Assembly: GCA_020050685.1 (NCBI GenBank)
Contig: JAGVKG010000025.1
Location: forward strand, 62,001-126,000
Reading direction: 5' to 3'
DNA length: 64,000 nt
Origin: Candidatus Obscuribacterales bacterium
GTDB taxonomy: Bacteria; Cyanobacteriota; Vampirovibrionia; Obscuribacterales; Obscuribacteraceae
Shown here: positions 10,858 to 37,200 of the stretch, piece by piece
Position numbering within the stretch: position 1 is the first letter of the stretch
Layout: every line of letters begins with the position of its first letter
The notes under the pieces: generated by a model
Seen by the model: the letters and a program-made list of their open reading frames with translations, nothing else
Told to the model about the DNA's origin: nothing
The model's database searches: none
Program-made: the position numbers and the translations under genes

Positions 10858-11183
10858 ATTCTAAATTCTCTCGGTCAGTTTCTATCTCTGGCGCCACACT
10901 GAAATAGTATTTCTCGGGAAACGATATTTCGGGGATTCCAATTTTACGAGGGATCCCTTCGCGCGGAACTGTCTCTAGTATTGCAGATTTCCGGGCAAAC
11001 TTTTAGTTAGATTTCGCAGCTTACTTCAAGACGCTCTGCCTGTGCGCCTGAATCGTCATTAACAATGCGTAAACCTTAAGTGAAAATATCTCTATTAAAA
11101 CCCTTGTACTTTACAGCCTATCGGTTGTTTCCTCTTGGAATTTGGTCTAGACTCTGTCTTTCGTGATTGTAAGTAGGCAGCAA
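10858..11183. promoter_or_regulatory. Divergent intergenic region between the RRM gene and the purine permease
   Basis: About 326 bp without a gene; it must hold promoters for both flanking genes. An imperfect palindrome centred on AGGGATCCCT (10949-10958) is the only notable symmetry. I looked for purine-riboswitch core motifs ahead of the permease and did not find them. Confidence 0.4.
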
Positions 11184-17998: not shown

Positions 17999-19795
17999 TC
18001 ATAACACCTTTTGAATATTGCTAAACAAGGCAGCGTCGCTTGAATAGCCAACCATATAATCCACTACTTCGTTATCACTATCGAGAAATAAAATCGTCGG
18101 AATTGGGCTAACACCATATTCTTCGATAAGCGGAGCATTCTTTGGATCGTCTGCATCAACTGAAACAAAGTTGACTCGATCGCCAAAAGTATCCTTGGCT
18201 CGTTCCAAGGCTGAATCAAGTTGATTGCAAGGCTCACACCAAGCAGCACAAAAGCTGATCACTGTTGGCTTTTTTACACTAACGTCAGCGAGGTTTCCAC
18301 CAACTATTGGTTTAACAGCGCTTACAGGATCAACCTTTGATTTTATCCGTGCTTGTTTTGCTTTGGTCAAAAGGCCATATCGGCCTGCAATTGGACGAGT
18401 AGCCGTGCCTAGATTCGGCTTGATGATGTGAGCCGGCAATCTCAATAATTGTGAATTAGCTTGCTTAGCAGTCTGCGGATCAGCAGCCATCGACAAAGCT
18501 TTGCGTAAGTGCAAGCGCGCATTCTGAGGATCGCTGGTCATAAGCATTTTGGCAATGTGCACATGTGTCATAGCTGTATTGCCTGCGCGGGCGGTAGCAG
18601 TTAATGGAACAAAAGAGTCACTGCTCAAAGAAGCAGACGCCACCGCATTTGGTGGCATAGATGTCGACGCTGGTGACGACGGCAGTTGTGGCACCGCCGG
18701 CAAATCGGATGTTGCCATTACCATAGATTTGATGAAAGCAATTGCCGCTGCCTTCTTAAATGTATGGCGGTAAAGCCAGGCTGTCACCCCATCGACTATG
18801 GCACTGTCGAACTGACCTTTCTCAAAAATCAAATGTTCAGCATCACCAAGAAGAACTAAATTCTTGTCCGACGTGGTCATCTCATTGAAAAGTTCAATTG
18901 TTCCCTCGGGCTTAACCAATTTGTCTTGGCTCCCCTGAAACATCAGCACAGGCTTTGCCGTGATCAACTTTGCCTTATCATGATTCTGATTCATGAAGTC
19001 TTGGAATTGCACCAACTCTTTGGGCGAAAGATCCATGCGATCGAGCGGATCGTTTTCCCATCGCTCAGCCAATTCCGGATTGTTCGTCGCTTGATTGACA
19101 ATTTCTTTACCAATCGGAAATTCTTTGTTTGGTCCGGCAGAAAGAATCTGCAGCGCCACTTTCAAATCAGTGCGCTTCTGTTTGAACCTTTCCCCAGCCG
19201 GCACCGCCGAAATCAATCCATCGATCAAATCGGGATACAATGCCGCCGCCTGCAGAGCAACCGCACCACCCATAGATTCACCCAAAAGGAAAACCGGAAT
19301 ATCGGGGTTGGCGCGGCGAATTGCTTTGAGTGCACCAGCCACATCCGATAAGCAAGCCTTGAAATCAACTTGCTCATGGCCTTTAGCACGCATCCACGAT
19401 CCAAAGCCACGCACATCAATTGCATAAGTGGCAACACCTAACGCGGCCATGTGCTTGCCAAAACCTGTATAGGCATCGCTGGCCAAACCCAATCCATGCA
19501 CGCAAAGCATTGCTGCCCATGGTTTGACATTAGGATCAATCCAGCTCAAGCAAGGCGCATCGCCTCCGGCGGACTTGTCCTCTGTTTTTACCTTCTTACT
19601 GTCTTTTGCGCTGACGTCTTTGCTCTGGTCTTGAGATTGCGCCTGTGCGCCGTCCGATGAATTGGACATGCCGCTTGGATCATCGAGTGCTTGTTGGCAA
19701 AAGCCAGGTGATGAGACAGAGAGGACAATAGAAAACGCGAGCAAGAATTTCGAACAATTGCCAAGAGAAACGTTAAATTTCACAATCTCACCCAT
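17999..19795 (-). CDS. Exported alpha/beta-hydrolase fused to a C-terminal thioredoxin domain
   Basis: A 598-aa two-domain envelope protein. A signal peptide ends near residue 33 (SPGFCQQA) and is followed by a low-complexity Ser/Asp/Lys linker. Residues about 80-345 form a lysophospholipase-like serine hydrolase: HGLGLASDAY, catalytic Ser174 in GESMGG, a later FQGSQDKLV acid loop and DAEHLIF for the His. A Pro/Ser/Ala linker and a short helical segment precede a thioredoxin domain (about 500-598) with Cys520 and Cys523 in WCEPC and a cis-Pro loop PIPTILF. Both domains look intact. A hydrolase covalently tied to a thiol-disulfide domain is unusual. A GTG at 19783 is an alternative start. Confidence 0.85.
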   Translation of the reverse strand: MGEIVKFNVSLGNCSKFLLAFSIVLSVSSPGFCQQALDDPSGMSNSSDGAQAQSQDQSKDVSAKDSKKVKTEDKSAGGDAPCLSWIDPNVKPWAAMLCVHGLGLASDAYTGFGKHMAALGVATYAIDVRGFGSWMRAKGHEQVDFKACLSDVAGALKAIRRANPDIPVFLLGESMGGAVALQAAALYPDLIDGLISAVPAGERFKQKRTDLKVALQILSAGPNKEFPIGKEIVNQATNNPELAERWENDPLDRMDLSPKELVQFQDFMNQNHDKAKLITAKPVLMFQGSQDKLVKPEGTIELFNEMTTSDKNLVLLGDAEHLIFEKGQFDSAIVDGVTAWLYRHTFKKAAAIAFIKSMVMATSDLPAVPQLPSSPASTSMPPNAVASASLSSDSFVPLTATARAGNTAMTHVHIAKMLMTSDPQNARLHLRKALSMAADPQTAKQANSQLLRLPAHIIKPNLGTATRPIAGRYGLLTKAKQARIKSKVDPVSAVKPIVGGNLADVSVKKPTVISFCAAWCEPCNQLDSALERAKDTFGDRVNFVSVDADDPKNAPLIEEYGVSPIPTILFLDSDNEVVDYMVGYSSDAALFSNIQKVL

Positions 19796-20570: not shown

Positions 20571-20620
20571 TTTCGCAAAACGCGATAGTTTTGACTTGCC
20601 CATTATCGCAAAACGCGATA
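20571..20620 (+). promoter_or_regulatory. Paired higBA operators and -35-like box
   Basis: Two palindromes of the form TATCGC-AAAAC-GCGATA lie at 20571-20587 (one mismatch) and 20604-20620 (perfect), 33 bp apart, about three helical turns. A TTGACT -35-like hexamer sits between them (20591-20596), and the second palindrome covers the expected -10 area. HigA antitoxins commonly repress their own operon at such sites. Confidence 0.7.
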
Positions 20621-20643
20621 GACTGCAATTGAAAGGATCAGTG

Positions 20644-20925
20644 ATGCTAATCGAAAATCGCAGAGCTGTCGACAAGTTCGTCGATAAACATGCAGATTCA
20701 CGAGTTCCTTTTATCGAATGGATCGAGAAGGTGGAAGCGGCGCAATGGTCTAGTCCGGTAGACATAAAAAGCACTTTTAACAGTGCAGATTACGTCAAAG
20801 GTTTAGTGGTGTTCAACGTTGGTGGCAACAACTTCAGGGTGGTAGCGGAAGTAGTTTATAAAGATGGAGTCGTTCGAATCGCTAAAGTTGGTACACATGC
20901 CGAATATGATGGGTGGAAACTATGA
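20644..20925 (+). CDS. higB: HigB-family toxin
   Basis: A 93-aa toxin of the HigB_toxin family, ribosome-associated mRNA interferases of the RelE superfamily. Features seen are ENRRAVDKFVDKHADSR at the N-terminus, the NVGGNNFRVVAEV strand pair and a C-terminal KVGTHAEYDGW, all typical of HigB. The ATG at 20644 follows an AAAGGA ribosome binding site; an in-frame start at 20596 would run through the operator region and is rejected. The gene order toxin-then-antitoxin and the ATGA overlap with higA are characteristic of hig modules. Confidence 0.93.
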   Translation: MLIENRRAVDKFVDKHADSRVPFIEWIEKVEAAQWSSPVDIKSTFNSADYVKGLVVFNVGGNNFRVVAEVVYKDGVVRIAKVGTHAEYDGWKL

Positions 20926-21338
20926 CGAGTACAATTCACGCAAGCAAAGAGTATCTAACACTGATAAAGCGTTTTCCTTTGCGCCCAATTCGCGATGAGG
21001 AAATGCTTGATGCCGCCTCTGAAATTTTTAGTCAACTCGTGATCAAGGCGGAAAACAGATCACCTGATGAAAACGACTACGTAGCTATTTTGGGCAAGCT
21101 CATTCGGGAGTACGAAGAAGCACATAAGCCTCAAGCACCAAATATGACACCACAGCGCGCACTTGAATCACTGATGGAAGATAATAAACTTAGCCAATCA
21201 GAGCTTGCAAGACAGCTAGAGGCGCCGCAATCGGTAATTTCCGAATTCCTGACCGGCAAACGAGGCTTAAGCAAAACACTTGTGCTTAGGCTGGCTGATC
21301 GTTTTAAAGTGTCGCCGGAACTTTTCCTATCTAAATAA
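20922..21338 (+). CDS. higA: HigA-family antitoxin (XRE helix-turn-helix)
   Basis: A 138-aa antitoxin. The N-terminal half (YLTLIKRFPLRPIRDE) is the HigA toxin-binding region. The C-terminal half has an XRE helix-turn-helix: KLSQSELARQLEAPQSVISEFLTGKR, in pieces, followed by the VSPELF tail common to this family. The ATG at 20922 overlaps the higB stop as ATGA; a GTG nine bases earlier is an alternative. It is the likely repressor acting on the palindromes at 20571-20620. Confidence 0.93.
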   Translation: MTSTIHASKEYLTLIKRFPLRPIRDEEMLDAASEIFSQLVIKAENRSPDENDYVAILGKLIREYEEAHKPQAPNMTPQRALESLMEDNKLSQSELARQLEAPQSVISEFLTGKRGLSKTLVLRLADRFKVSPELFLSK

Positions 21339-21389: not shown

Positions 21390-21785
21390 TCAGACAATTT
21401 CGTCATCAGGAACATACGTAATATTATCCTGATCATCCCTTGGCGTGCTGACTATCAGCAATTCAGCATCATCGGCAGTATCATTTACCACCATGTGGGC
21501 GACTTCAGGTGGAAAGCCCATTGTCGTGCCGGCACTAGCCGTCTGCCAATGTCCATCGATCCATACACGTACTGATCCCCGCAGCACATAGATAAATTCT
21601 TCTTTGTGGGAATGACTATGTGCTGGTGACGAGCGGTGTCCTGGTTTCAGCACTTCATGTTCAATACATAACTTTCGCAATCCAACTGCTTCTGAAAGAT
21701 TTGCCAATGAACCTAGAACCTCCCGCGTGCTGGTTCTTTCTGAATCGAAGTGAGAAAGATCGTGCGGATTGATTATAGAATTCAC
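21390..21785 (-). CDS. Small single-domain cupin
   Basis: A 131-aa single-cupin protein. Cupin motif 1 is visible as HSHSHKEEFIYVLRGSVRV with metal-ligand histidines and Glu. Motif 2 is GFPPEVAHMV with the third histidine. Such cupins bind a metal or sugar ligand and may be isomerases, dioxygenases or simple sensors. Starts are TTG at 21788 or GTG at 21785, both after a GGGGA ribosome binding site. It begins only about 15 bp after the hydrolase-ThDP fusion gene, so it is the last gene of that operon. In ureide pathways, ureidoglycine aminohydrolase is also a cupin, but that enzyme is usually a longer bicupin; equivalence is not claimed. Confidence 0.82.
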   Translation of the reverse strand: MNSIINPHDLSHFDSERTSTREVLGSLANLSEAVGLRKLCIEHEVLKPGHRSSPAHSHSHKEEFIYVLRGSVRVWIDGHWQTASAGTTMGFPPEVAHMVVNDTADDAELLIVSTPRDDQDNITYVPDDEIV

Positions 21786-21802
21786 CAAAAGTTCCCCAGA
21801 GT

Positions 21803-24442
21803 TTATGCGTCGCGTTGGCAGGTTACGTTTACTAGGACGTGTTTTTTGTCTTGGCGTACTGTGCGCAGAGCTTGTTTGAGAGTGAGGAGCAATTGCTCTG
21901 TTGTGCTCACGGTAACACCTACGCCACCACAGGATTCTGCTACTTTTTCGAATTTTACATTGATATCAAAATTGCAGAGCGGGAAGAAGTCTTTCTTTTC
22001 CGCCCAGCCATTTGGAGTGGTGCCAAGATAGGATTTTTTGATTGTTGACCAGCCACTATCGTTGAAGACAATTATCAATATCGGCAATTTGTACGCCGAC
22101 GCTACATAGTGCGCGGACAGTGGCGTATTAAACATATAAGTGCCGTCACCTAATGTTGCCACCATAGTTTTATCCGGGCAGGCAATCTGAGCACCTAGCG
22201 CGGCTCCGAGCGACCAGCCGAGTCCTGAGGCAATTGAATTTTCGAACCAAGAATCAGGAAGGTTTCTCGGGATCAATTGCGGATCTAAATTGTATTCGTT
22301 AAAGATCACGCAATCATCATCAATTGTTTGACCAATGCAATAGGACAAATATGATTTTGTAATTTCTTTCAGATCACCGTCAGCCTTTGCCTTAGCAAAT
22401 GCGTTGTCGAATATTTTTCGGTGATCCTGGGCAATACTTTCATATCTCGTGCGAATTGTAGTCTGATTCAAATTCTCATGGCCATTATTACTTGAGATGA
22501 CATTCGTCAAAGATCGCAAGGAGGAAACAGGATCGCCAGCCAAAATAACATCGGTCGGGAAGCTGCGCATTGGAATGCGCTGGCAAAGCGGATCAACACC
22601 AATTTGAATGATTGTCGGCGGTTCTTTGCCTTTGGAGAATTCCGATGAGAGTTCCGGAATCCACGGCACAGGATCTTCAATTGCAATTACCAGATCTGCT
22701 TCTTCCACAAATGGGCTCGGCCAAAAACCAAGATGCATTGTGTTATCGGTTGGGAAATTGAAAAAGTTGCGCTTGCCAAATTCAATTACTGGAATGGCAA
22801 ACTTTTGCGCAAATTGGACAAGAGCTTCTACACCACCCGCGTAGCGTCCAAGTTCGGCAACAAGAACCAAGGGCTTTTTAGCATCAGCGATTAAGCGCGC
22901 TGCTTTGGCAATTGCCGTCTCAGATGCTTGCTGTGGATAAGTTGGCAACTGACGAGGCTGGCTGGAGATTTCCAGATCGTCTATTTCTTTACACAAAGCT
23001 TCTTTCGGCAATGTTAAATAAACCGGACCTTGGGGATCGCTTTGACTAATTGCCAATGCCCGATCGAAAGCAGACTCTAGATTCTCCGGTCCCTTCAGTT
23101 CGTAATCCCATTTAGTGAATTCTCGGAAATAGGCTGCCTGATCGAAAGTATCTTGTCCCCATTGAACAAAATTAGTCCGGCAACCATCCACACGAGATTC
23201 AAACCACGGCGTCTTGCCTGACATCACGAGCATCGGAATGCGCGAGCGGGAAGCATTGATGATTCCCAAGCCCATGTTTGCTGTGCCAACATTCACGTGA
23301 CCCATAACCACAGCCGGCTTGCCAGAAAGAAGATAGTATCCATGCGCCATGGCAACGGAAGTATTTTCATGTGGCGCAATGATGGTCTTCAATTTAAAAT
23401 CAGGATCGCCATCATATCTGGCCAAACCATCAATGATTGGCGTAAAGTCCGTTCCGGAATTGGAAAAGAAATATTCAATGCCACGCTTATTTAGCAATGC
23501 CACCAAACCATGCGCAACTGTATCAGCTTCCACAGTTATATTGGCACGCGGAGTCTCGGCGATTCTTTGGCTTGCTCTTGAGCGAGCCCGAAACAGTTGA
23601 GCGCGCAAAGCACGATTGAATTCTTCCGGATGATCCAAATTGGAATAGTGACCTGCGCCTTCAATATTGATCAATTGTGATGTCATCACCCGCGAATGAA
23701 TTGTCGTCAAAAGTGGCTCAGTCGGAGTGATCTTATCTTCCGTACCACCAATCAAAAGCACCGGCACATCAATTTCTTCGAGCATGCTTAAGTAATCGAC
23801 TTTGAACATGGAATGCCAGGAAGCCAGAAACACTCCTTTGTTTTTGCTGCCCTCAGACTGAATACCTTTTTCGATAATTTTTGGATCGGTACCTGGCGCA
23901 AAGAGTCCCGGCACTAATTGTGCAGCACTTTCAGCTAAAGTCATTTTGCTCAGTTGCTCGGTCATAAATTCAATCTTGACTTTTGCATCGGCTTGTACGC
24001 ACCAACTATTTGCCAGCGTCATCGATTGAACAACCTTGCGGTTCTGTTTAAATACTTCCTGCGCCACCACACCTCCCATGGAGAGTCCAACCAGGTGGGC
24101 TTGACGATAACCAAGGTAACCAATCAAAGCAATTACATCTTCAGCAAACGATTCAATAGTGACACTACTTTTGACACTTTCCGCATTTTCTGGAATTGTC
24201 GACTGATTATGTCCTCTCAAATCCAAACTTACGCAAGCATACTTGTCGGCGAAGGCATCGACCTGCGGCTCCCACATCGAGTGATCCGCACCAACTGAAT
24301 GAATGAAAACGATCAGCTCTTCGCCCATGCCCTTATGCTTGACGAACAAGCGAGCGCCGGTAGATAGTTCGACAATTTCTCCAGCAATAGCACCGGTTGC
24401 GACTTTTTCACTCTTATGATTCGATATTACTTTCGGTTTCAT
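21803..24442 (-). CDS. Fusion of alpha/beta-hydrolase and thiamine-diphosphate-dependent enzyme
   Basis: An 879-aa bifunctional protein without a signal peptide. Residues about 20-290 are an alpha/beta-hydrolase of the enol-lactonase/MenH-like type: FIHSVGADHSMW, nucleophile Ser121 in GLSMGG, acid region GGTEDKITP and GAGHYSN with the His. After a short linker, residues about 305-879 form a ThDP enzyme of the acetolactate-synthase/benzoylformate-decarboxylase superfamily. The catalytic Glu359 lies in APHENTS, a central domain follows, and the ThDP/Mg site is GDGTYMFN (Asp766) through FNDSGW. The retained catalytic Glu argues against a glyoxylate-carboligase type, which lacks it. No FAD-binding claim is made. 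Flanking genes suggest catabolism of a ring-opened N-heterocycle. Confidence 0.88.
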   Translation of the reverse strand: MKPKVISNHKSEKVATGAIAGEIVELSTGARLFVKHKGMGEELIVFIHSVGADHSMWEPQVDAFADKYACVSLDLRGHNQSTIPENAESVKSSVTIESFAEDVIALIGYLGYRQAHLVGLSMGGVVAQEVFKQNRKVVQSMTLANSWCVQADAKVKIEFMTEQLSKMTLAESAAQLVPGLFAPGTDPKIIEKGIQSEGSKNKGVFLASWHSMFKVDYLSMLEEIDVPVLLIGGTEDKITPTEPLLTTIHSRVMTSQLINIEGAGHYSNLDHPEEFNRALRAQLFRARSRASQRIAETPRANITVEADTVAHGLVALLNKRGIEYFFSNSGTDFTPIIDGLARYDGDPDFKLKTIIAPHENTSVAMAHGYYLLSGKPAVVMGHVNVGTANMGLGIINASRSRIPMLVMSGKTPWFESRVDGCRTNFVQWGQDTFDQAAYFREFTKWDYELKGPENLESAFDRALAISQSDPQGPVYLTLPKEALCKEIDDLEISSQPRQLPTYPQQASETAIAKAARLIADAKKPLVLVAELGRYAGGVEALVQFAQKFAIPVIEFGKRNFFNFPTDNTMHLGFWPSPFVEEADLVIAIEDPVPWIPELSSEFSKGKEPPTIIQIGVDPLCQRIPMRSFPTDVILAGDPVSSLRSLTNVISSNNGHENLNQTTIRTRYESIAQDHRKIFDNAFAKAKADGDLKEITKSYLSYCIGQTIDDDCVIFNEYNLDPQLIPRNLPDSWFENSIASGLGWSLGAALGAQIACPDKTMVATLGDGTYMFNTPLSAHYVASAYKLPILIIVFNDSGWSTIKKSYLGTTPNGWAEKKDFFPLCNFDINVKFEKVAESCGGVGVTVSTTEQLLLTLKQALRTVRQDKKHVLVNVTCQRDA

Positions 24443-24544
24443 ACTTTTCCCGCTATCTTCGTGTTATCAGAATTGACACTGTTGCATTGAGGGCGGGAAG
24501 ACCCCGCCCCTACAATTATCATTGGATATTACTTTCGGTTTCAT
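24423..24544 (-). repeat. Tandem duplication of the fusion gene's start region, with 25-codon leader ORF
   Basis: A 20-bp sequence comprising the fusion gene's first codons (MKPKVIS) occurs at 24423-24442 and again at 24525-24544, 102 bp upstream, with similarity continuing at lower identity on both sides. The upstream copy keeps its ATG (24544) and opens a 25-codon reading frame, MKPKVISND onwards, that stops at 24467-24469. It could act as a leader peptide or be a relic of the duplication. Confidence 0.6.
24491..24513. repeat. REP-like GC-rich inverted repeat, copy 1
   Basis: GGGCGGG and CCCGCCC arms followed by CTAC form a short hairpin unit. A related unit lies 89 bp away at 24580-24602 and another at 48691-48714, so this is a dispersed intergenic repeat. 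Here it lies within the 25-codon leader frame. Confidence 0.6.
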
Positions 24545-24551
24545 CATTACG

Positions 24552-24602
24552 TGTCATCCTAATCGATTCGTTCCGGGGAGGGCGAGGAAACCTCGCCCCT
24601 AC
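24552..24602. repeat. REP/MITE-like element, copy 2, overlapping the amidohydrolase stop
   Basis: Begins with TGTCATCC (24552-24559), the same octamer that bounds the copy at 48634-48722, and ends with the hairpin GGGCGAGG/CCTCGCCC plus CTAC (24580-24602). The right-hand octamer is absent. The minus-strand TAG stop of the ring-opening amidohydrolase (24599-24601) lies in the final CTAC, so the repeat end forms the end of that gene. Confidence 0.6.
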
Positions 24603-25693
24603 ATTTTGGCAATGATAGCCAATGTGCCACCACCGAGCGGTCCATGGTGCTCGGCTCTCGTACTTATATAAACAGCTGTATCACCAATGATACTGGACAA
24701 AACAGCACCGAGCACACAACGGGAATATCGTGTGTCGCTAAAGTCATCATCAGTCAACATCGTATGGCGGCGTCCGCGAATAGTACCTCGAGGATCGGCC
24801 TCGGATTTGGCAAAGACGCCGACGATTCTGCTTACTTGTTCAGGCGAAAGCTGATCTTCAAACGTGATACCAAGTCCTTTAAGAACTTGGCGAACGGTTG
24901 AGACATCAATCATATCTTTCAATACGCCATGATTAATCTCCAAGTCACCTGTCCAATAAGGGCTATTGCCCATAACCATAATTTCTGTCCGCTTAAGACC
25001 TGGTTTTGCTGAGCATGAAGCAACACTAGAAAAAAGATCGAAGTCACGGCAAACTTTATCGTCGCTCAACTGAGAGCTGTCCACTTCCTTCAAAGCAATA
25101 GCACTAGCCAAAGCAGATGCACCGCGCGAATAAACCATATCGGAGCGCAAGGGTTTGCCCTTCTTCTCCCATGCCTCTGCCTCTACATAGCTAAAACTTG
25201 GAATGGCGCCCTTCATCTGAATCAAGTGCACATCTTTTTCCGAATCCAATTTCAAGCTTTCGATAATTGAACGAATGACTTTTGCTGTCTCTTCAATCTG
25301 CGGCAGGCGACCAATTTCTTCTGGAGAAAATTCTCGGGTAAATCCAATACCAATCGCCAAACGTTTTTTGTCATGTCGCTCGTTAAGTGCTGCACCACCG
25401 CGAGTGAAGACAACACAGTGCGGGCTAACCACTCCTTCGCATCCACCGGACACAGAAAATATGATGCGATCGACAACTTCCTGACGCGTTAATTTCAAAC
25501 GCTCCACGAACAGATCTTCAAACGCTCTCATAGCTAATTCACGCGTAAAATCATTCGTGCCACCATTGCCTTCTGTCTTGGCAATAATGCAAATGACCTC
25601 AGAAGGATTAATTGCACCATCGGCAATCAGCCTCTGCAGTCCGCTAACATCTGCCGGGCCGCTAGTAGCAATCTTGAAGGCTTTAACTTCCAT
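24599..25693 (-). CDS. Ring-opening amidohydrolase (cyanuric acid hydrolase/barbiturase family)
   Basis: A 364-aa enzyme of the small family that hydrolyses a cyclic amide bond in N-heterocycles such as cyanuric or barbituric acid. The three-fold internally repeated architecture is complete, with three Lys-Ser pairs at family positions. These are Lys39 in AKTEGNGG with Ser82 in SGGCEG, Lys161 in QMKGA with Ser193 in SRGASAL, and Lys296 in FAKSEAD with Ser344 in STRAEHHGP. The NDFTR block and the AEHHGPLGGG tail also match. No frameshift or missing residue is seen. The flanking ureidoglycolate-lyase-like gene favours a product containing a ureido group. Substrate is not resolvable by eye. Confidence 0.93.
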   Translation of the reverse strand: MEVKAFKIATSGPADVSGLQRLIADGAINPSEVICIIAKTEGNGGTNDFTRELAMRAFEDLFVERLKLTRQEVVDRIIFSVSGGCEGVVSPHCVVFTRGGAALNERHDKKRLAIGIGFTREFSPEEIGRLPQIEETAKVIRSIIESLKLDSEKDVHLIQMKGAIPSFSYVEAEAWEKKGKPLRSDMVYSRGASALASAIALKEVDSSQLSDDKVCRDFDLFSSVASCSAKPGLKRTEIMVMGNSPYWTGDLEINHGVLKDMIDVSTVRQVLKGLGITFEDQLSPEQVSRIVGVFAKSEADPRGTIRGRRHTMLTDDDFSDTRYSRCVLGAVLSSIIGDTAVYISTRAEHHGPLGGGTLAIIAKM

Positions 25694-25728
25694 CTACCGT
25701 ACTTTCATCGAAAATTAGAGATCAGGAC

Positions 25729-26364
25729 CTACAAATTCACACGCAAAATCTTGCCAGTGCGTTTCTTGATATCGATTTTGTAAACATCACCGCTATTCAT
25801 TTCATCAGGAGTTTTCTGGCTGGCAAGCGCTGCCACCACTTCTTCTGAATTTGCAGTCAATACAGTGACTGGATCTTTTACGCACATTGGGAAATCGTGC
25901 CATGTGCCTTTCCAAATCATCACACCATGACCAGGCGGAATCAGGAAGCACTTAACTTGATCCAAATCCGGCACATCTTGGGCTGCCGGCTTGCCGTCTA
26001 CTGTACCCAGCAAACCGCTCAGTTCTGCGGCCTCCGGGCCACCCTTGGCACCAGGATGATTCGGCTTGCCCAAAACCATGGCGAGCGGCTGATCGCCAAG
26101 CCCAACGAAAAGCTGCGTCATATCCATGTGACGCTCAAGCCAGACAATGTCGCCCGAGCGCTTGCTAATGCGAGCAGTGCGCACAACCGCTTTGCCATTA
26201 TATTCAAAGGGAATGTTGTAGCCTTCCTCGACGGAGCCCTTGTAAAAGGGGATGCTCAAACCAGCTTCCGGCAATTCGGCGCCAATGAAAAGCCCATAGT
26301 CAGCAATGTTCTCGCGGGTCGCCTGAATCACGGGTACATTCACAATTTGCAGAGTCTCGGTCAT
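25729..26364 (-). CDS. Ureidoglycolate-lyase-like protein (AllA family)
   Basis: A 211-aa protein resembling the ureidoglycolate lyase (AllA) family, beta-barrel enzymes that release urea from ureidoglycolate. Recognisable parts are the WLERHMDMTQLFVGLG segment in the first half, and the IPPGHGVMIWKGTWHDFP segment with histidine and Trp in the second. It is slightly longer than typical AllA. An AAGGAA ribosome binding site precedes the ATG at 26364. It lies 17 bp after the ketopantoate-reductase-like gene and 35 bp before the amidohydrolase. The actual substrate may be another ureido acid released by that amidohydrolase; that is inference. Confidence 0.8.
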   Translation of the reverse strand: MTETLQIVNVPVIQATRENIADYGLFIGAELPEAGLSIPFYKGSVEEGYNIPFEYNGKAVVRTARISKRSGDIVWLERHMDMTQLFVGLGDQPLAMVLGKPNHPGAKGGPEAAELSGLLGTVDGKPAAQDVPDLDQVKCFLIPPGHGVMIWKGTWHDFPMCVKDPVTVLTANSEEVVAALASQKTPDEMNSGDVYKIDIKKRTGKILRVNL

Positions 26365-26381
26365 GGCAAAATTTCCTTAGG

Positions 26382-27299
26382 TTATGGCTTGCGCTTCTGG
26401 GATTTCTCCAGGTAAGACACTATATCTACGATTGTCTCATTTAGAGGCGCTTTTTGATCATGAATCCTGGCAACTTCGCAGACTGCACCGTTAAGAAATT
26501 CTAGTTCTGGGTGACGCCCGGCTCGCAGGTCTTGCAAAGTGGCATTGATGTTGTCACGAGTCTTCTCCAGCGATTGAAATACCGCAGCCAAGTCCGCGTC
26601 AGAAAGGTTAACTCCATCAGCCTTCGCAATTCGTACTGCTTCGCTAGCTATTTCCTTGGCAACACGACCCAATGCCGGATAGTCAAGAATCGCTCCGTTA
26701 GGCGCATCGGCAATGGCACAAAGTCCATTGACGGTGATATTCCAAAGGGCCTTTTTCCATTCGGAAAGTCTGGCGTCGGTGCTAACCGAACTTGTAACGC
26801 CAGCATCGTTCAATACCTTGGACCAATCTTCCATGAACTTTTGGTTTTCCGTGGCAGAAGCGAACTCGAATTTGTGAATGCCGGCAATGTGAATATGATC
26901 GAGATCGATTCTTTGCACACCAATCCAACAAAGCAAGCGAACAATAGGATTTTTAGGCAGAATCTCGCAAGCTTCATCATAAATGCCGATGCCATTTTGG
27001 CAAAGCACAATCGGATTTGTCTCGCTAATTTTGTCTTGGAGAATTTCTAAAAGTGCCAGAGCCTCGTGCGCCTTAGTGGCAATAAAAAATGGTGCTTGTG
27101 GATCAACATTTACCACGTCCTCCAAGAGCAAACAATCCAGATTGAGATTGTCTTCCATAGCCCCTGTAACTTTTAGTGGACTAGCTTTCAAACGGTCATA
27201 AGACGATTGGCGGCAAATCAATTTTGCACCGCGAGCCTTTTGCAAAAGACACTGCAAATGCAATCCGATACCGCCGGCGCCAAGGACATATGCTGTCAT
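26382..27299 (-). CDS. Ketopantoate-reductase-like NAD(P)-dependent dehydrogenase (ApbA/PanE family)
   Basis: A 305-aa dehydrogenase of the ketopantoate reductase family. The N-terminal Rossmann motif is LGAGGIGLHL, FIATKAHE marks the cofactor strand, and QNGIGIYD stands at the family's conserved QNG position. The C-terminal helical domain has the catalytic Lys region WKKALWNITVNGLCAI and an LRAGRHPELEFLNGAV tail, as in PanE. A GGAG ribosome binding site precedes the ATG at 27299. Family members reduce 2-keto or oxidise 2-hydroxy acids besides ketopantoate. Its place in a catabolic operon, without other pantothenate genes, makes a pathway-specific role more likely than CoA synthesis. Confidence 0.87.
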   Translation of the reverse strand: MTAYVLGAGGIGLHLQCLLQKARGAKLICRQSSYDRLKASPLKVTGAMEDNLNLDCLLLEDVVNVDPQAPFFIATKAHEALALLEILQDKISETNPIVLCQNGIGIYDEACEILPKNPIVRLLCWIGVQRIDLDHIHIAGIHKFEFASATENQKFMEDWSKVLNDAGVTSSVSTDARLSEWKKALWNITVNGLCAIADAPNGAILDYPALGRVAKEIASEAVRIAKADGVNLSDADLAAVFQSLEKTRDNINATLQDLRAGRHPELEFLNGAVCEVARIHDQKAPLNETIVDIVSYLEKSQKRKP

Positions 27300-27321
27300 A
27301 TTTGCTCCTTACGTAACGCCT

Positions 27322-28356
27322 CTACAAATCTGCGTCCCAATCCGGTTTTTTCTTTGCCGCTGGCAAATCTGGCTTGAGATCCAAAAATGCCACCACTGCA
27401 AATTTGCCGGACTCAAGAGCCCTAACTCGCAATGAATGTTCTGCCGTACCTGATTTTGCCGAGACATACAGTACTTGCGTGTTGCCGCCGGCAAGTGATA
27501 CCACTTGCGGTGTGCGATTCACAACTCTAATTGGCACCGTATAGGAAATTCCCGTCAACCCCGCCACTTTGATAAGCACAGAACTGCACTGGCCTTTGGT
27601 AATTTGATCGTGCAACATCGAAACCTTAATCGCTAAGTTGCTGAAGTTTGCTTGCTTGCTGCGACCATTTTCCGTCAGCTCAATAAACGTTGGGCCGACA
27701 GTTTCCGTCGGACTTTCAAAAATCAGCTTGCGCGGCGACTCGGCAAGCATCATTACCGACTTGCCCCCAACCTTAATTTCCGTGTTACCAAAATTGCCAT
27801 CAAATTCTCCCAGACATTCTGCCGGTCGTCCTGTCTCACCAAGCTTGGGCAAACCGAAATCTTGGCGATAGGCTTTGGTCGACTTGGACGCTCCTCGGCC
27901 AGTATCTTGGAATGCAGCCGGCATCAAGCTCGGCTGCAAACGCAAAGCCTGCACACAAAGAATTGCACCGTAACGATCTTTGAGAATCAAATCCGAAACC
28001 GCTTGCGAATCGGAAAACTGGCATGTGAAATCTCCGTCTTTCACCACAGTTTGAGCGTTGGCCAGAAAAATCACATACTCATCCAACAACTTTTGGTTCT
28101 TAATTCGCTCATTGTCATTCCGACCGACCGGATCAATTTGTACCGATCCGGAAATGGTATCACCGGAGCTTATGTCGTCCGGGAGATTGACGATTATCCT
28201 GCCTTGCGGAGTATGAAAGCTCACCGAGGCAATTCCCATCGCCAAACTGAGCGTACCAAAAATCTGATTAAAGCGTTTGGATTCAGCCATGCCTATTGGC
28301 ATCGACAGGCAAACCAAACTGATAAAAGCTAATGACCAAGCCAAATAACTGCGCAT
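27322..28356 (-). CDS. Exported protein of unknown function, possibly beta-rich
   Basis: Not recognised. The protein (344 aa from ATG 28356, with AGG 7 nt upstream; a GTG at 28374 is an alternative) has a clear signal peptide, ending around MAES. The mature part is rich in alternating hydrophobic residues suggestive of beta strands or Ig-like modules, for example GTAEHSLRVRALESGKF. It has a GDTISGSV segment often seen in surface proteins. No catalytic motif is obvious. It lies 22 bp upstream of the dehydrogenase gene and overlaps or nearly abuts the next exported-protein gene, so it probably belongs to the same transcript as the catabolic cluster. Confidence 0.65.
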   Translation of the reverse strand: MRSYLAWSLAFISLVCLSMPIGMAESKRFNQIFGTLSLAMGIASVSFHTPQGRIIVNLPDDISSGDTISGSVQIDPVGRNDNERIKNQKLLDEYVIFLANAQTVVKDGDFTCQFSDSQAVSDLILKDRYGAILCVQALRLQPSLMPAAFQDTGRGASKSTKAYRQDFGLPKLGETGRPAECLGEFDGNFGNTEIKVGGKSVMMLAESPRKLIFESPTETVGPTFIELTENGRSKQANFSNLAIKVSMLHDQITKGQCSSVLIKVAGLTGISYTVPIRVVNRTPQVVSLAGGNTQVLYVSAKSGTAEHSLRVRALESGKFAVVAFLDLKPDLPAAKKKPDWDADL

Positions 28357-28363
28357 AATCAAC

Positions 28364-28720
28364 CTAATGTTCACCGGTCATATCAGTGCTGGAGACATCC
28401 AAGTCGGCATTTCTATCATGGCGAAAAACCCGCATCACGTTCTTCGATTCCAAAACATAGCCGCAAGCCTCGTCCGTATGCTTGGTCAGAAGCCTGTGCA
28501 TGCCCGGGCGCTCGATAACCATACCTTCAAAAGTGAAATCAAAAAATTGCATAGGCGGCGCATCCACCACGACATCGGCAAATTCTTCGGCAAGGGAAAC
28601 CTCGCCTTGCAAAATCGCCGTTTCCACCGGCAAGTCCGCCGCACGCGAAAGAGGACACGCAGCAATTTGTCCGATAATTGCCAACCAAATAGGTAAATTC
28701 CGCAGCCCAAACAAGCGCAT
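28364..28720 (-). CDS. Small exported protein of unknown function
   Basis: Not recognised. Starting at ATG 28720 it has a signal peptide (about residues 1-27, cleavage near SRAAD) and a mature part of about 90 residues that is acidic and may contain beta strands (AEEFADVVVDAPP). A GGAAAC/AGG stretch upstream serves as ribosome binding site. Longer in-frame starts up to 28792 would add residues ahead of the signal peptide and are less likely. Its stop overlaps the alternative start of the next gene. It is the first gene of the minus-strand run and faces the 2-hydroxyacid oxidase gene across about 216 bp. Confidence 0.6.
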   Translation of the reverse strand: MRLFGLRNLPIWLAIIGQIAACPLSRAADLPVETAILQGEVSLAEEFADVVVDAPPMQFFDFTFEGMVIERPGMHRLLTKHTDEACGYVLESKNVMRVFRHDRNADLDVSSTDMTGEH

Positions 28721-28936
28721 ATGCCTAGTTTCCGTGAAGCACAAAACCGAAATACCAATACCTAATTCATACCCAATGCGCCATGCAAACAATCACTTGA
28801 GAACCGGCAGGGAAACTACCAATCGTAGGCAAAGCCGACAATTAACCTGGGCTTGAGAGCCGTGATGGCGGCACGCAATCTGCCAGACAACATGTGAGAA
28901 AATAGGGGACAACTTTGGCAATGGCGGAGAAGAATT

Positions 28937-30028
28937 TTGGACACGAGCGCTCAACCAGTAAATGTCTTTGAGTACGAAAAGCTGGCCAAAGAAAAATTGC
29001 CCGGCATGGTTTACGACTACTATGCCTCCGGTGCCAACGATGAGATTACACTGCGCGACAATCATGAAGCCTACGACCGCATCAAGTTGCGTTATCGAGT
29101 CCTGGTTGATGTGAGCAATATCAGTTTGAAGGCCTCAATTTTTAATCAAGAAATCTCCATGCCGATAATGGTGGCGCCGATGGCCTTTCAGGGAATGGCG
29201 CATCCGGATGGTGAGCTTGCCACGGCGCGGGCTTGCGGAAATGACGGCACCATCATGGTCTTAAGCACGCTTTCCAATCATTCCATCGAGGCGGTGACGC
29301 GAGAAGCAACCGGCCCAATTTGGTTTCAGCTTTATGTGTTTAAGGATCGCGGCATGACCAAATCATTGGTCCAAAGAGCAGAGGCTGCCGGCTGCAAGGC
29401 ACTGGTCTTGACTGTGGATTCGCCTTATTTAGGCAGGCGCGAACGGGACATTCGCAACGGCTTTAGTTTAGGTGGCGCGCTCAAGGCAAAGAACCTGGAA
29501 AAGTCCGTACAAGAAAACGTACCGGCGAAGAAAAACACTTCAGGGCTTGCCGCTTACTTGGAAGCATTTTACGATACTGGACTGACCTGGAAAGATCTTG
29601 AATGGTTCAAGTCCATTACCAAGTTACCAGTCTTGGTGAAAGGCATTGCGCGCGGAGACGATGCGCAATTGGCGATCAAAAACGGAGCAGATGGAATTGT
29701 TGTCTCCAACCATGGCGGAAGACAATTAGACACATCTCCTGCCACCATTGAAGTCTTGCCAGAAATTATTGAAGCGGTTGATGGGAAATTTGATGTAATT
29801 GTCGATGGTGGCATTCGCCGCGGCACCGATGTTGTAAAAGCTCTGGCATGTGGAGCCAAAGCCGTGTTTGTCGGCAGACCAATTCTTTGGGGATTAGCCA
29901 CCGAAGGCGAAGCCGGCGTCAGCAAAGTGCTCAACATGTATCGCGAAGATTTTCAAACATCAATGGCATTATGCGGCTGCACAACGCCAGACCAAATCAA
30001 ACGCGATCTGATCTGGACACGCAAATAA
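28937..30028 (+). CDS. FMN-dependent 2-hydroxyacid oxidase/dehydrogenase (glycolate/lactate oxidase family)
   Basis: A 363-aa flavoenzyme that oxidises L-2-hydroxyacids to 2-oxoacids. The TIM-barrel begins with YDYYASGANDE, and FMN contacts include APMAFQGMAHPDGE and WFQLYVFKD. The catalytic His259 lies in VVSNHGGRQLD, followed by the conserved DGGIRRGTDVVKALACGA and VGRPILWGLA blocks in pieces. The start is TTG at 28937 behind a GGAGAAG ribosome binding site. It is divergent from the catabolic cluster and could feed or use 2-oxo acids handled there, for example glycolate to glyoxylate. Family call firm; substrate open. Confidence 0.93.
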   Translation: MDTSAQPVNVFEYEKLAKEKLPGMVYDYYASGANDEITLRDNHEAYDRIKLRYRVLVDVSNISLKASIFNQEISMPIMVAPMAFQGMAHPDGELATARACGNDGTIMVLSTLSNHSIEAVTREATGPIWFQLYVFKDRGMTKSLVQRAEAAGCKALVLTVDSPYLGRRERDIRNGFSLGGALKAKNLEKSVQENVPAKKNTSGLAAYLEAFYDTGLTWKDLEWFKSITKLPVLVKGIARGDDAQLAIKNGADGIVVSNHGGRQLDTSPATIEVLPEIIEAVDGKFDVIVDGGIRRGTDVVKALACGAKAVFVGRPILWGLATEGEAGVSKVLNMYREDFQTSMALCGCTTPDQIKRDLIWTRK

Positions 30029-30982: not shown

Positions 30983-31384
30983 TTACTTGCTGGTTGCTGG
31001 CTTCTCTTCTTTTTTCTTGCCAATTGAGGTGATGGCTTCGCCGGTCTTCTTAGCGCCAGTGCCTACGGCTTCTGCGCCTTTCTTGACACCCTTGCCGACG
31101 GCTTCGGCAGTCTTTTTGGCGCCAGTACCAACGGCCTTCACACCTTTGACAGTGCCTTTGCCGACGGCCTCTGCACCCTTGCCTACAGCTTCAGCGCCTT
31201 TTTTCAAACCGCCGCCAACGGCCTTAACGCCCTTGCCTGTGCCTTCGCCAACTTTTTCGGCACCTTTTTTAATTCCAGAACCAACATCTTTTGCGCCTTC
31301 GACGACTTTGTTTTCAGCAAAGGAAGCACCTGTTCCTATGGTCAAAGCAACGGATAAAGCCAATAGTAAAGAACCGAACTTCAT
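30983..31384 (-). CDS. Exported Gly/Lys/Ala repeat protein (LEA-like)
   Basis: A 133-aa protein with a signal peptide (about residues 1-23, cleavage at SFAEN). The mature part consists almost entirely of degenerate 11-residue-like repeats such as KKGAEAVGKG, VKAVGTGAKKT and GKGVKAVGGG. The composition is Gly, Lys, Ala and Val with little else, strongly basic, with a short KKKEEKPATSK tail. Such repeats recall LEA-type or amphipathic surface-binding proteins. It has its own strong terminator and is followed by an unrelated gene, so it is a single-gene unit. Role unknown; stress protection or envelope binding is a guess. Confidence 0.75.
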   Translation of the reverse strand: MKFGSLLLALSVALTIGTGASFAENKVVEGAKDVGSGIKKGAEKVGEGTGKGVKAVGGGLKKGAEAVGKGAEAVGKGTVKGVKAVGTGAKKTAEAVGKGVKKGAEAVGTGAKKTGEAITSIGKKKEEKPATSK

Positions 31385-34245: not shown

Positions 34246-37200
34246 ATGAGCAGTAACCTGTCAGACAATAACAACCTTCCAGAACTCTTACCAGGATCCA
34301 CAAGCGATCTTTCCATTTCCTACGAGCGCAAACCCAAGTCCCTTGGCGAATCGACCTACAGCGAAATCGAAGCCCAGCAAAAGGCTGCCTTGCAAAAGGC
34401 TCAGGATGCAAGCCAGCAAGGCAATAAGCCTGATTCGGCTAAAGAATCCGGCACCGTCAAGCCGCGCAGCTTCGGCAATTCGGAACTGGTCGAAATCAAA
34501 AAGGGCGACAGCATTTGGAACGCAGCCCAAGCCAAATATGGCCCAAATATTCCGTTGGCAGCAATTTACGAAGCCAATCGTATGACGCCGCGCAAAATTG
34601 AGATTGTTAACGGCAAAAGATTAATCACTCCTCCAGTTTATGAACCCGGACAGTACATTCTTCCGGATGAAAGATTGGTCGAGCAGTTAACCAAAGCATT
34701 TTGGGCCCGCATGAATAGCAATGCGCCTGCAGGCGATTCTGCGGAAAGCAAACCGGCTCAAACAGCTCCTATCAGCGACAGCACTGAAAAAACACCCGCA
34801 CCAGTTGGTGATTCATCCGGTAAGACACCGGCGCAAACTGCACCAGCAAGTGACAGCACCGACAAAACACCGGCACAAACAGCACCGACTGGTGATGCAT
34901 CCGGCAAGACACCTGCACAAACTACACCTGCCGACACAAGCACCAAAAATCCTTCTGAAAAAATACCGCCAGTATCGAGTGATACATCTGGCAAGACACA
35001 ACCAAGTGACAAGACTGGTGATACCACTCAATGTCCGCCCGCACCATCAGATAAACAAACACCAAAAATGCCAGATGGCAGGCCGCTTGATCCTGAAGTT
35101 AAACAGGCTATGCAGGATCGCTATGCCCAACTGAAGGGCGAGTTCGACAAAGCCAAAACCGGCTTTGAAAAAGAACATAAGCAAGAAGGTCTGCTCGGTA
35201 TGGCGAGCGACTTTATCCATAACGTGCTTGGCACACATAAAGAAGATGAGAATCCATTTGCTTCACTCTGGTCACATATCGTAAATAGGAAAGACGGATC
35301 GGAAGATATTAAAAAATGCATGCAAGAGCAAGTGACATTGCTTTCTCAAATGAAAGATGCAGTGGACAAAAATGATTTGGAGAAATTCTCCGAGATTCAT
35401 AAAAACAAATTATTGACCGGTGGTAGAGACGGTGTCGGTAAAGAATTTAAATATACAAATGCTAACAAAGTGCATGTTAAGGCGAAAGAAGACGCCAAAC
35501 ATTTTAGTGGCTCGCAAGAAAATACCGTTCATGGTCTAACTGATCTTGGCACTGCCACAACATCATTGATTGCTGCGGGACTCATCTTGAGAAAAAATCC
35601 GGCAACCGGCATGCAATTGTTAATGCGTGCAGCCCCAATTGGCATGGGTGTGGGTGCAGTTGCTAGACCAACATTTACGCACCTTGTCGATGCGCCATTA
35701 AATGATATCGGACAAGGCAAATTCTGCTTCGGACAATATGCCAGCCTTGGTAGAGATGTTGGCACTGGTGTTGTGGTCGGTGGTCTTGCACCAGCTACAG
35801 ATATTCTTGGCGGTATGGCTACCAAGAAAGTAGCTGAGACAATTGCTCCTGGACTTGCCGTCAAAGCAGGACTAACGCTAAATAATGGTGTCGCTCCATT
35901 TGAACGTGAGATTCTTGGCGAAAGATTGATCACTCCAAATAAGATTGACTGGAAAGATTGGTCCCCATGGAAGTCTGGTACATTGTTAGGTTCAACCAAG
36001 GATCAATGGACATACAAATTCCTCGGTGCCGCTTCCAAGTATGGCGTGGCTGGTGGTGCGTTCAGTGGTGCCGATACAACTATTCGCAGTGTCACTGATG
36101 GACGCGTGCCATCGGTAGCTGAAGTCGCAACATCAACAGTGTTGGGCGCAGCAACCGGCACAGCGCTCGGTTTGCGATTCGATCCGCTGGCAGCAGCGGT
36201 ACATCCGCCTGTTAACAATCCTGGTGATGCAAATACTCCTCCTGCTGGTGATGCAAATACTCCTCCTGCTGGTGACGCAAATACTCCTCCTGCCGGTGAT
36301 GCAAATACTCCTCCTGCTGGTGACGCAAATACTCCTCCTGCTGGTGACGCAAATACTCCTCCTGCCGGTGATGCAAATACTCCTCCTGCTGGTAACGATA
36401 ATTCAAAAGCGATCCCGCCAGAGTTGACTGCTGTTAGAGATCACATCCAACACGTTGGTAAGCAGAGCATTAGCGAACTGAAGCCTGGCGTAAATAGCAA
36501 AGGCGAAGCCGGTTTCTTCATTGATGGCAACGACAGAGCAATAAGATACTTCAAGCACTATTTGCCTGAAGGTTACGAAATTGAGAAAGCTGGCACAAAG
36601 ACACCCGATGGTCTTTTCGACATTTACTTTGTCAAGAAAAATAGCAGTGCACAACCTGAAGCCTCGATTGAAAATTCAACTAAGCAATCACTTGTCGGTG
36701 ACACACAACGATCTCTCATAGATGACAGTCCAGCAGACACTGTGGCTGATTCAGGTGATGCTCCAATCGTCACTGACTCGAGTACGATTGGTAAAAATGA
36801 TGGTTCCCTCGCACCACAAGTGAAACCGTTTGAGAATGTTGCACAATATGTTGGGGATAATCTTTCAGATCAGGTGGGTTGCTCGCGACACGAAATTGAT
36901 CCGAAGCGACTGGACACAGTCCGCAGTACGCTCGCCGCAAGTCTCAGTAAAAATCCAAATGTCAAAGGCGCACCTCCGGAAGCAGCGGTAGATGCAGCTG
37001 TGCTTGAATGGCGGCAGCCACGGTCCATGGATCCAAACAGAACTGAAGTTCTCCAAAAATCGCTTACAACCGATCTGCAGAAAAAGCTCGGGCGCACTCC
37101 AACAGATATTGAAGTGGATGGCGCAATGCGTGAATGGCTCGAATCACCGGGAATGAAATCACTTATTGAAGGTGGACACGTACTTCTTAATGTAACCGAC

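Follow-up and report, generated by a model that had tools for sequence, protein, structure and literature searches.

A Group IV ring-opening amidohydrolase operon in Obscuribacterales with a possible role in purine catabolism

Gene content and conservation of the operon

The locus analyzed here raises the question of which compound is degraded by an operon that joins a ring-opening amidohydrolase (RingAH) to an AllA-like protein and a hydrolase-ThDP fusion. In the window (the whole stretch of 64,000 nucleotides that was analyzed), we confirmed the seven closely spaced minus-strand genes of a preliminary description, all of which are open and together span 21390 to 28792. The first of these genes, exp142, starts with TTG, and the end point given previously corresponds to an ATG in the same frame at 28720. 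We also verified the divergent FMN oxidase gene reported there. The features relevant to our analysis are as follows.

28364-28792, minus strand: exp142, putative exported protein of 142 aa (TTG start)
27322-28374, minus strand: exp350, putative exported protein of 350 aa
26382-27299, minus strand: PanE/ApbA-like 2-oxo-acid reductase (ApbA/ApbA_C)
25729-26364, minus strand: AllA-like protein, ureidoglycolate-lyase fold (PF04115, E = 2.1e-9)
24599-25693, minus strand: RingAH, ring-opening amidohydrolase of 'Toblerone' fold (PF09663, E = 2.9e-125)
21803-24442, minus strand: alpha/beta hydrolase-ThDP fusion (Abhydrolase and TPP_enzyme N/M/C)
21390-21788, minus strand: small cupin (Cupin_2)
28937-30028, plus strand: divergent FMN-dependent alpha-hydroxy-acid oxidase (PF01070, E = 7e-143)
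11163-12707, plus strand: AZG-type purine (adenine/guanine) permease
12717-14885, plus strand: FdhF/YdeP-family molybdopterin oxidoreductase (TIGR01701, 688 bits; cut-off, 582)

From exp142 to the cupin gene, intergenic spacings were -11, 22, 17, 35, 156, and 14 nt, with a GC-rich hairpin (24580 to 24598) inside the 156-nt gap between the RingAH and fusion genes. The N termini of exp142 and exp350 resemble signal peptides as judged by eye rather than by a prediction tool, and neither protein matched a Pfam or NCBIfam family in a profile search.

The expectation that the gene set would be conserved elsewhere held for a core of four genes, encoding the PanE-like reductase, the AllA-like protein, RingAH, and the fusion, which we found in 8 of 50 Obscuribacterales genomes. 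The core, mostly without the PanE-like gene, also occurred in about ten Myxococcota loci, including Nannocystis. Five related loci and one deltaproteobacterial operon have a PanE-like gene beside the core, and a homolog of the FMN oxidase (61%) is likewise divergent from the operon in one related locus (L014). Because the core is conserved across two phyla, its arrangement represents more than a chance neighborhood. We did not find exp142, exp350, or the cupin in the loci of relatives and dropped them as module members for this lack of conservation. The MtnA-like and FtsZ neighbors of three loci (L015 to L017), identified by eye, were also dropped as either unconserved or merely part of a shared genome neighborhood. 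Our literature search found no paper naming both a ring-opening amidohydrolase and a ureidoglycolate lyase, consistent with the earlier statement that no pathway with this set has been described.

Classification of the ring-opening amidohydrolase

RingAH had previously been interpreted by reference to cyanuric and barbituric acid hydrolases. Assignment to this family (PF09663) stood, with a profile match and all three Lys-Ser pairs that had been reported (K39/S82, K161/S228, and K296/S344), but the specificity residues and clade of RingAH are those of Group IV. These residues are R190, T321, R325, T345, and R346 in RingAH numbering, which coincides with AtzD numbering from T321 to R346. The Group IV signature, described for Acidithiobacillus and Sulfobacillus, is R195, M/T321, R325, T345, and R346, and in 2013 the group was proposed to have a function connected with the unusual physiology of acidophiles (Peat et al. 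2013, PMC3758960). We observed this signature in all 17 sequences of the clade, A. caldus included. Group IV formed a single clade with the Acidithiobacillus enzyme at 100/100 support in a tree of 24 sequences, a sample outside which Sulfobacillus lay.

RingAH shares with AtzD/TrzD and barbiturase the fold family, the three Lys-Ser pairs, the carbonyl-binding arginines, and a C-terminal metal-loop motif, but differs from them in T345/R346, in its MKGAIP and SAKPG motifs, and in its partner genes. With R/T/R/T/R at the specificity positions, RingAH departs from the signatures of both cyanuric acid hydrolases (R195/T321/R325/G345/G346) and barbiturase (Bar, Group VI; N195/H321/K325/V345/S or A346). 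The AtzD-type sequences compared keep GG at positions 345/346, whereas every member of the Group IV clade has TR. By its specificity residues, RingAH thus belongs to the uncharacterized Group IV rather than to the cyanuric acid hydrolases or the barbiturases.

A triazine route, in which RingAH would be a cyanuric acid hydrolase with incidental neighbors, is very unlikely. RingAH does exceed the cut-off of NCBIfam NF052395 (CyanAcHdlAtzD; 394 bits versus 360), cyanuric acid hydrolases are its top hits in the PDB (E = 3e-99), and A. caldus carries AtzG/E/H-type genes. In addition, NE0047-type deaminases, a relative of which is encoded in the deltaproteobacterial operon, may also act on ammeline, which would fit such a route. 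Against it, TR replaces GG at 345/346, and Group IV falls outside the AtzD-type sequences at 100/100. We did not find downstream biuret/allophanate genes for RingAH; the genome that contains the window has two clear amidase-family genes, neither of which, where tested, reached the cut-off for AtzF or AtzE, and it lacks urease. Furthermore, an AllA partner would be pointless for carboxybiuret. The NCBIfam name of cyanuric acid amidohydrolase is probably wrong for RingAH.

We also consider it quite unlikely that the operon serves a pyrimidine route, in which RingAH would open a (5-substituted) barbiturate from uracil or thymine, the AllA-like protein would free urea as a ureidomalonase-type enzyme, and the malonate-level acid would be processed on. 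RingAH is in the same protein family as barbiturase and retains three carbonyl-binding arginines, and T345, as V345 of barbiturase, fills a position that is Gly in AtzD. In the oxidative pyrimidine route, a dehydrogenase converts uracil to barbiturate, which would fit the Xdh-type genes of A. caldus. However, RingAH lacks the N195/H321/K325/V345 signature, an absence that also places barbiturase itself low among the candidates, AllA chemistry is a hemiaminal elimination whereas ureidomalonate requires amide hydrolysis, and purine rather than pyrimidine genes occur in the operon contexts.

Our search of open papers found no study of the uncharacterized Group IV 'Toblerone' enzymes later than that of 2013. 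The group is now seen in nonphotosynthetic relatives of cyanobacteria (Obscuribacterales) and in myxobacteria, extending its host range to Obscuribacterales and Myxococcota. The acidophile enzymes have a signature identical to that of RingAH, fall in the same clade through A. caldus, and are also adjoined there by an AllA-like gene. Their other partners are Xdh, AtzE, HpxZ, and GGT, in contrast to the hydrolase-ThDP fusion and PanE-like reductase in Obscuribacterales.

Purine contexts and exclusion of OHCU decarboxylase

Group IV RingAH was nearly always found with an AllA-like partner, and several contexts of this pair contain genes of purine metabolism. In A. caldus, three Xdh genes precede genes for an AllA-like protein (59%) and RingAH (49%), followed by XdhC, DUF4089, AtzE, HpxZ, and GGT. 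Acidiferrobacter has the order Xdh subunits, AllA-like protein, RingAH. The first gene of the deltaproteobacterial operon (L038) is related both to NE0047 (2G84, E = 6e-30) and to B. subtilis guanine deaminase (1WKQ). In the window, the AZG permease gene lies about 9 kb from the operon and is convergent with it, as in two related loci (L012 and L014; 68 to 70% identity), where the molybdopterin oxidoreductase (70%) is syntenic with the operon as well; this synteny of permease and molybdenum enzyme extends to only two of six genera. The window's own genome contains xdhAB and xdhC away from the operon. A point against a purine link is that G001 and G005, both among the eight operon genomes, showed no xanthine dehydrogenase. 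Taken together, these gene contexts point to purines. The preliminary description had made no such connection, whether to the Xdh genes, the guanine deaminase relative, the permease, or the OHCU decarboxylase pattern described below.

We scored the classical uricolytic route in genomes by its marker, OHCU decarboxylase. This gene was absent from all eight full-operon genomes searched, including the window's own, compared with its presence in 31 of the 42 others (P = 1.4e-4). Among Xdh-bearing genomes alone, it occurred in 0 of 6 with the operon versus 31 of 38 (P = 2.4e-4). Calculated without a species tree, the exclusion had P values of 0.013 by genus and 0.005 when stratified by size; given this setting and the weaker by-genus value, ancestry could explain part of the exclusion. 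The single genome in which RingAH occurs by itself (G013) retains the classical set, consisting of HIU hydrolase, OHCU decarboxylase, allantoinase, and allantoicase. OHCU decarboxylase was also absent from all six Nannocystis genomes tested. As evidence to the contrary, it was present in two MAGs with partial sets: L039, which has AllA-RingAH-ThDP but lacks the hydrolase domain, and L037, which has AllA-RingAH. Classical uricolytic clusters of related genomes, which encode HIU hydrolase, OHCU decarboxylase, allantoinase, and allantoicase, would share the proposed role of the operon but have no genes in common with it, and the two are mutually exclusive in the sampled Obscuribacterales when the operon is full.

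Partner enzymes and a proposed route

A model of the AllA-like protein aligned with E. coli AllA (1XSQ/1YQC) at a TM score (target) of 0.77 and about 15 to 17% identity in the structural alignment. It has the AllA fold and conserves the LERHxxxxQ and GxWH motifs; its equivalog score was 23 bits (cut-off, 260), and a PDB sequence search found no match, such that structure comparison alone found AllA. We propose that it is a urea-releasing lyase. The fusion consists of a PcaD-like alpha/beta hydrolase (S121, D236, and H265) and a PRK08327-type ThDP enzyme (NF006203, 573 bits; cut-off, 456) that keeps E359, H382, and GDG at 765 to 767. It scored far below the cut-offs for glyoxylate carboligase (103 versus 791 bits) and benzoylformate decarboxylase (NF005485, 131 versus 493 bits). 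The PanE-like reductase exceeded the TIGR00745 (2-dehydropantoate 2-reductase) cut-off (184 versus 141 bits).

On the evidence of gene content, conservation, purine context, Group IV membership, intact catalytic residues, and the AllA fold, we give an even chance that the core forms a previously undescribed module for the catabolism of purine-derived compounds in place of the classical urate-to-allantoin route. The AZG-type permease would admit purines, which xanthine dehydrogenase would bring to the urate level. RingAH would then open an oxidized urate-level compound with a cyclic imide, with 5-hydroxyisourate, alloxan/alloxanate, and 5-hydroxyhydantoin as candidates; RingAH has an additional Lys and Arg close to the pocket, which suggests that its substrate is anionic or hydroxylated. 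From a ureido hemiaminal, the AllA-like protein may eliminate urea to leave a 2-oxo acid, either glyoxylate or, if the carboxylate is kept, mesoxalate. The ThDP enzyme may decarboxylate or ligate this acid, and the PanE-like reductase and FMN oxidase may interconvert 2-oxo and 2-hydroxy acids. More tentative, and rather doubtful, is a specific version in which Group IV enzymes open an oxidized urate-level ring to bypass OHCU decarboxylase and allantoin, the divergent AllA frees urea, and a 2-oxo acid such as mesoxalate passes to the dedicated hydrolase-ThDP fusion. The earlier outline of an N-heterocycle or ureide being opened, its ureido group removed, and a 2-oxo or 2-hydroxy acid processed fits our sequence-based evidence, although the exported proteins and cupin fall outside the conserved module and PanE belongs to it only in part.

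Urease was absent from the six full-operon genomes searched (all but G031 and G073), including the window's own, and we rejected it as a urea sink. Without urease in this genome, urea would be waste, and the idea that the cell gains nitrogen from it lacks support.

A narrower purine reading follows the E. coli AllB, AllA, Gcl, and GlxR allantoin route. RingAH would act as a nonorthologous allantoinase or 5-hydroxyhydantoinase and the AllA-like protein as a genuine ureidoglycolate lyase, and the ThDP and PanE-like enzymes would replace glyoxylate carboligase and tartronate semialdehyde reductase. The two systems have in common the AllA fold, a ThDP enzyme and 2-oxo-acid reductase after ring opening, and putative urea release, giving a gene-by-gene analogy with the allB-allA-gcl-glxR regulon, but the ring opener, ThDP enzyme, and reductase are nonorthologous. 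Structurally, the ThDP part came closest to E. coli glyoxylate carboligase, only marginally ahead of AHAS, and in the relatives that we examined, the classical allantoinase and allantoicase occur together with OHCU decarboxylase. However, Val replaces the catalytic Glu in glyoxylate carboligase, whereas the fusion keeps E359; RingAH retains a six-ring pocket with three arginines; and the AllA-like protein scores far under the AllA cut-off. We therefore judge replacement at the allantoin level to be unlikely.

We assign a similarly low probability to an unrelated function, in which another imide (e.g., orotate-like, flavin or pterin derived, or xenobiotic) would be degraded and PanE would serve pantothenate synthesis. 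The PanE-like reductase is the sole ApbA_C protein of the genome, which has panB and a panC-like gene on another contig, and two operon genomes are without Xdh. PRK08327-type ThDP genes also occur in unrelated catabolic clusters; on plasmids, their Neorhizobium neighbors encode PanE, aldehyde dehydrogenase, a TRAP transporter, and FMN oxidase, and no common substrate emerged from the plasmid contexts examined. Opposing this reading are four separate purine associations (the Xdh operon, guanine deaminase relative, AZG permease, and OHCU decarboxylase exclusion) and the movement of PanE together with the core in several loci.

The purine contexts and AllA partner allow the Group IV question to be tested directly on a few candidate substrates. 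If true, the purine module would give purine catabolism an alternative branch and correct an automatic annotation as cyanuric acid amidohydrolase that hints at herbicide or pool-chemical degradation. We did not find hpx-type genes near the operon in Obscuribacterales, and to our knowledge the classical hpx cluster is without RingAH; the genes following the AllA-RingAH pair in A. caldus (DUF4089, AtzE, HpxZ, and GGT) resemble the Klebsiella hpxWXYZ oxalurate cluster.

Gene set and host

The window (G000:C11:62001-126000) belongs to a 4.2-Mb MAG of 98.7% completeness whose GTDB family takes in depositions named Candidatus Obscuribacterales and Candidatus Melainabacteria, so the host is a non-photosynthetic relative of cyanobacteria. 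ORF checks and profile matches recovered all seven genes of the set reported in the preliminary description, with families as claimed. Besides two putative exported proteins and a cupin, the genes and sites considered here are as follows.

21803-24442, minus: alpha/beta hydrolase-ThDP fusion
24580-24598: perfect 8-bp, GC-rich hairpin
24599-25693, minus: ring-opening amidohydrolase
25729-26364, minus: AllA-like protein
26382-27299, minus: PanE-like reductase
28937-30028, divergent: FMN alpha-hydroxy-acid oxidase

Adjacent genes of the set, which we infer to form a single transcript, are spaced at -11 to 35 nt. One wider gap, of 156 nt, separates the amidohydrolase and fusion genes. The hairpin lies in this gap, immediately 3' of the amidohydrolase stop codon, and is a possible attenuator or processing site.

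Beside the operon, a HigB-type toxin gene is overlapped by an HTH antitoxin gene (20596-21338), the latter with a near-copy on another contig (L058:13026-13451). The window also encodes a 1979-aa ORF with zero Pfam matches (34246-40185), a putative exported low-complexity protein with VGKGAEAVGKG-like repeats (30983-31384), and a putative exported alpha/beta hydrolase fused to a C-terminal thioredoxin domain (17999-19795).

The amidohydrolase and its partner enzymes

Five specificity positions defined for the AtzD/Bar family are R, T, R, G, G in cyanuric acid hydrolases, N, H, K, V, S/A in barbiturase, and R, M/T, R, T, R in Group IV, an uncharacterised set from Acidithiobacillus and Sulfobacillus (Peat et al. 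2013, PMC3758960). In our alignment, every sequence of the window amidohydrolase's clade carried the Group IV residues, and the A. caldus protein had M at 321, in agreement with that study. By these residues, the window enzyme is neither a cyanuric acid hydrolase nor a barbiturase. Group IV is further marked by K161-G-A-I-P, compared with K-C-P-L-L or K-T-P-L-L in the other sequences, and by S228-A-K-P-G, compared with S-A-G or S-S/G-G. The phylogeny suggested earlier separated Group IV on a branch with 100/100 support (IQ-TREE, 24 sequences). Because the amidohydrolase passes the NCBIfam cyanuric acid model (394 bits against a cut-off of 360), automated pipelines would probably annotate the group wrongly, as cyanuric acid type.

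Chloroflexota amidohydrolases (L040, L041, L042) were 40-41% identical, and the two aligned had a specificity loop, SAGWGYHQGP, differing from CAH, Bar, and Group IV. Another ring-opening amidohydrolase, found again on many Citrobacter/Klebsiella plasmids, lies on an IncX5 KPC plasmid (L011, NZ_OQ821180, 8909-16550) with a nucleobase symporter, DUF2877, FdrA, DUF1116, and carbamate kinase.

The AlphaFold model of the 211-aa AllA-like protein (mean pLDDT 79) matched E. coli and Pseudomonas AllA structures at target TM 0.73-0.77. The fusion protein retains an intact Ser-Asp-His triad and intact ThDP residues. Its ThDP part is a PRK08327 model member (573 bits), with glyoxylate carboligase and AHAS as nearest structures, the two not separated. 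In Neorhizobium, a PRK08327 gene has genes for an aldehyde dehydrogenase, a PanE, and an FMN alpha-hydroxy-acid oxidase as its company, a grouping that supports a role in the turnover of 2-oxo and 2-hydroxy acids. Since PanE is the sole ApbA_C protein in the genome, it possibly doubles in pantothenate synthesis; panB and a panC-like gene sit on a different contig from the operon. The stretch L059:7515-10190 holds panB, a panC-like gene, and then a gene for a 303-aa protein of Rossmann type, a possible ketopantoate reductase.

Distribution of the core

Nine of the 50 genomes analysed from the family encode the amidohydrolase. The order PanE, AllA-like, amidohydrolase, and hydrolase-ThDP was found in the window and in loci L012, L013, L014, L022, and L024, and the same order without PanE in L015/L020, L016, and L018. 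L017 (genome G013) has the amidohydrolase without the other core genes. A scan of ~85,000 species genomes recovered this core from Myxococcota as well, namely from six Nannocystis genomes, where the fusion gene lies a few kb downstream of the rest, and MAGs L030, L031, and L038. Partial versions included L036 (amidohydrolase and fusion; an AllA-like gene was looked for and not found), L039 (ThDP part, hydrolase domain missing), and L027 and L037 (AllA-amidohydrolase pair without the ThDP part). Conservation of the gene set, raised in the preliminary description, therefore extends to the core in the family and in Myxococcota but not to the exported proteins and cupin, which had zero homologs in any fetched locus.

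In L015, L016, and L017, from three genera, the core or lone amidohydrolase adjoins an MtnA-like isomerase and an ftsZ-like gene (identified by eye). With AllA and ThDP missing and a classical OHCU cluster elsewhere in the genome, the pattern in L017 would fit loss of the operon.

Proposed route and purine context

AllA needs a ureido hemiaminal beside a carboxylate and yields a 2-oxo acid, the type of substrate used by both a ThDP enzyme and a 2-oxo-acid reductase. Ring-opening amidohydrolases hydrolyse a ring imide and liberate a carboxylate, and HIU hydrolase likewise cleaves an imide bond to open the six-membered ring. In the simplest scheme on this basis, imide opening is followed by urea release and 2-oxo acid processing: the amidohydrolase would open an oxidised urate-level imide, the AllA-like protein would release urea, and glyoxylate or mesoxalate would pass to the ThDP enzyme. 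HIU hydrolase would be dispensable.

Four lines bear on a purine context: exclusion of OHCU decarboxylase, Xdh gene runs in A. caldus and Acidiferrobacter, the L038 deaminase, and permease synteny. Within the family, OHCU decarboxylase occurred in 0 of 8 full-operon genomes, compared with 31 of 42 without the full operon (p = 1.4e-4, kinship ignored; G073 was scored as full although its contig, L022, ends within the fusion gene). The exclusion held at completeness of >=85% (p = 5.1e-4), among Xdh-bearing genomes only (p = 2.4e-4), counted by genus (p = 0.013), and stratified on genome size (p = 0.005). G013, the sole genome with a lone amidohydrolase, has an OHCU decarboxylase gene that shares a cluster with those for allantoinase, HIU hydrolase, and an allantoicase-like protein. 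Of 15 further genomes bearing the operon or part of it, just two, those of L037 and L039, had OHCU decarboxylase. Xdh was not detected in operon-bearing G001 and G005, nor was urease found in the window's own genome.

In A. caldus, three Xdh-type subunits, AllA-like, amidohydrolase, XdhC, DUF4089, AtzE, HpxZ, and GGT genes lie on one strand, and in Acidiferrobacter (L043) the AllA-like and amidohydrolase genes immediately follow Xdh subunit genes. Because the HpxZ name is also borne by the AtzH-position gene in a cyanuric acid operon and the A. caldus Xdh large subunit scores under xanthine-specific cut-offs, these runs are only suggestive of purines. In L038, a same-strand deaminase gene upstream of the AllA-like gene is closest to 2G84 (NE0047, a guanine deaminase also accepting ammeline), with guanine deaminase 1WKQ as the second-closest match. 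Finally, an AZG-type purine permease (11163-12707) and an FdhF/YdeP-family molybdoenzyme (12717-14885) are convergent with the operon in the window, as are their 68-70% homologs in L012 and L014; in L014, a 61% homolog of the FMN oxidase is divergent at the operon's other end.
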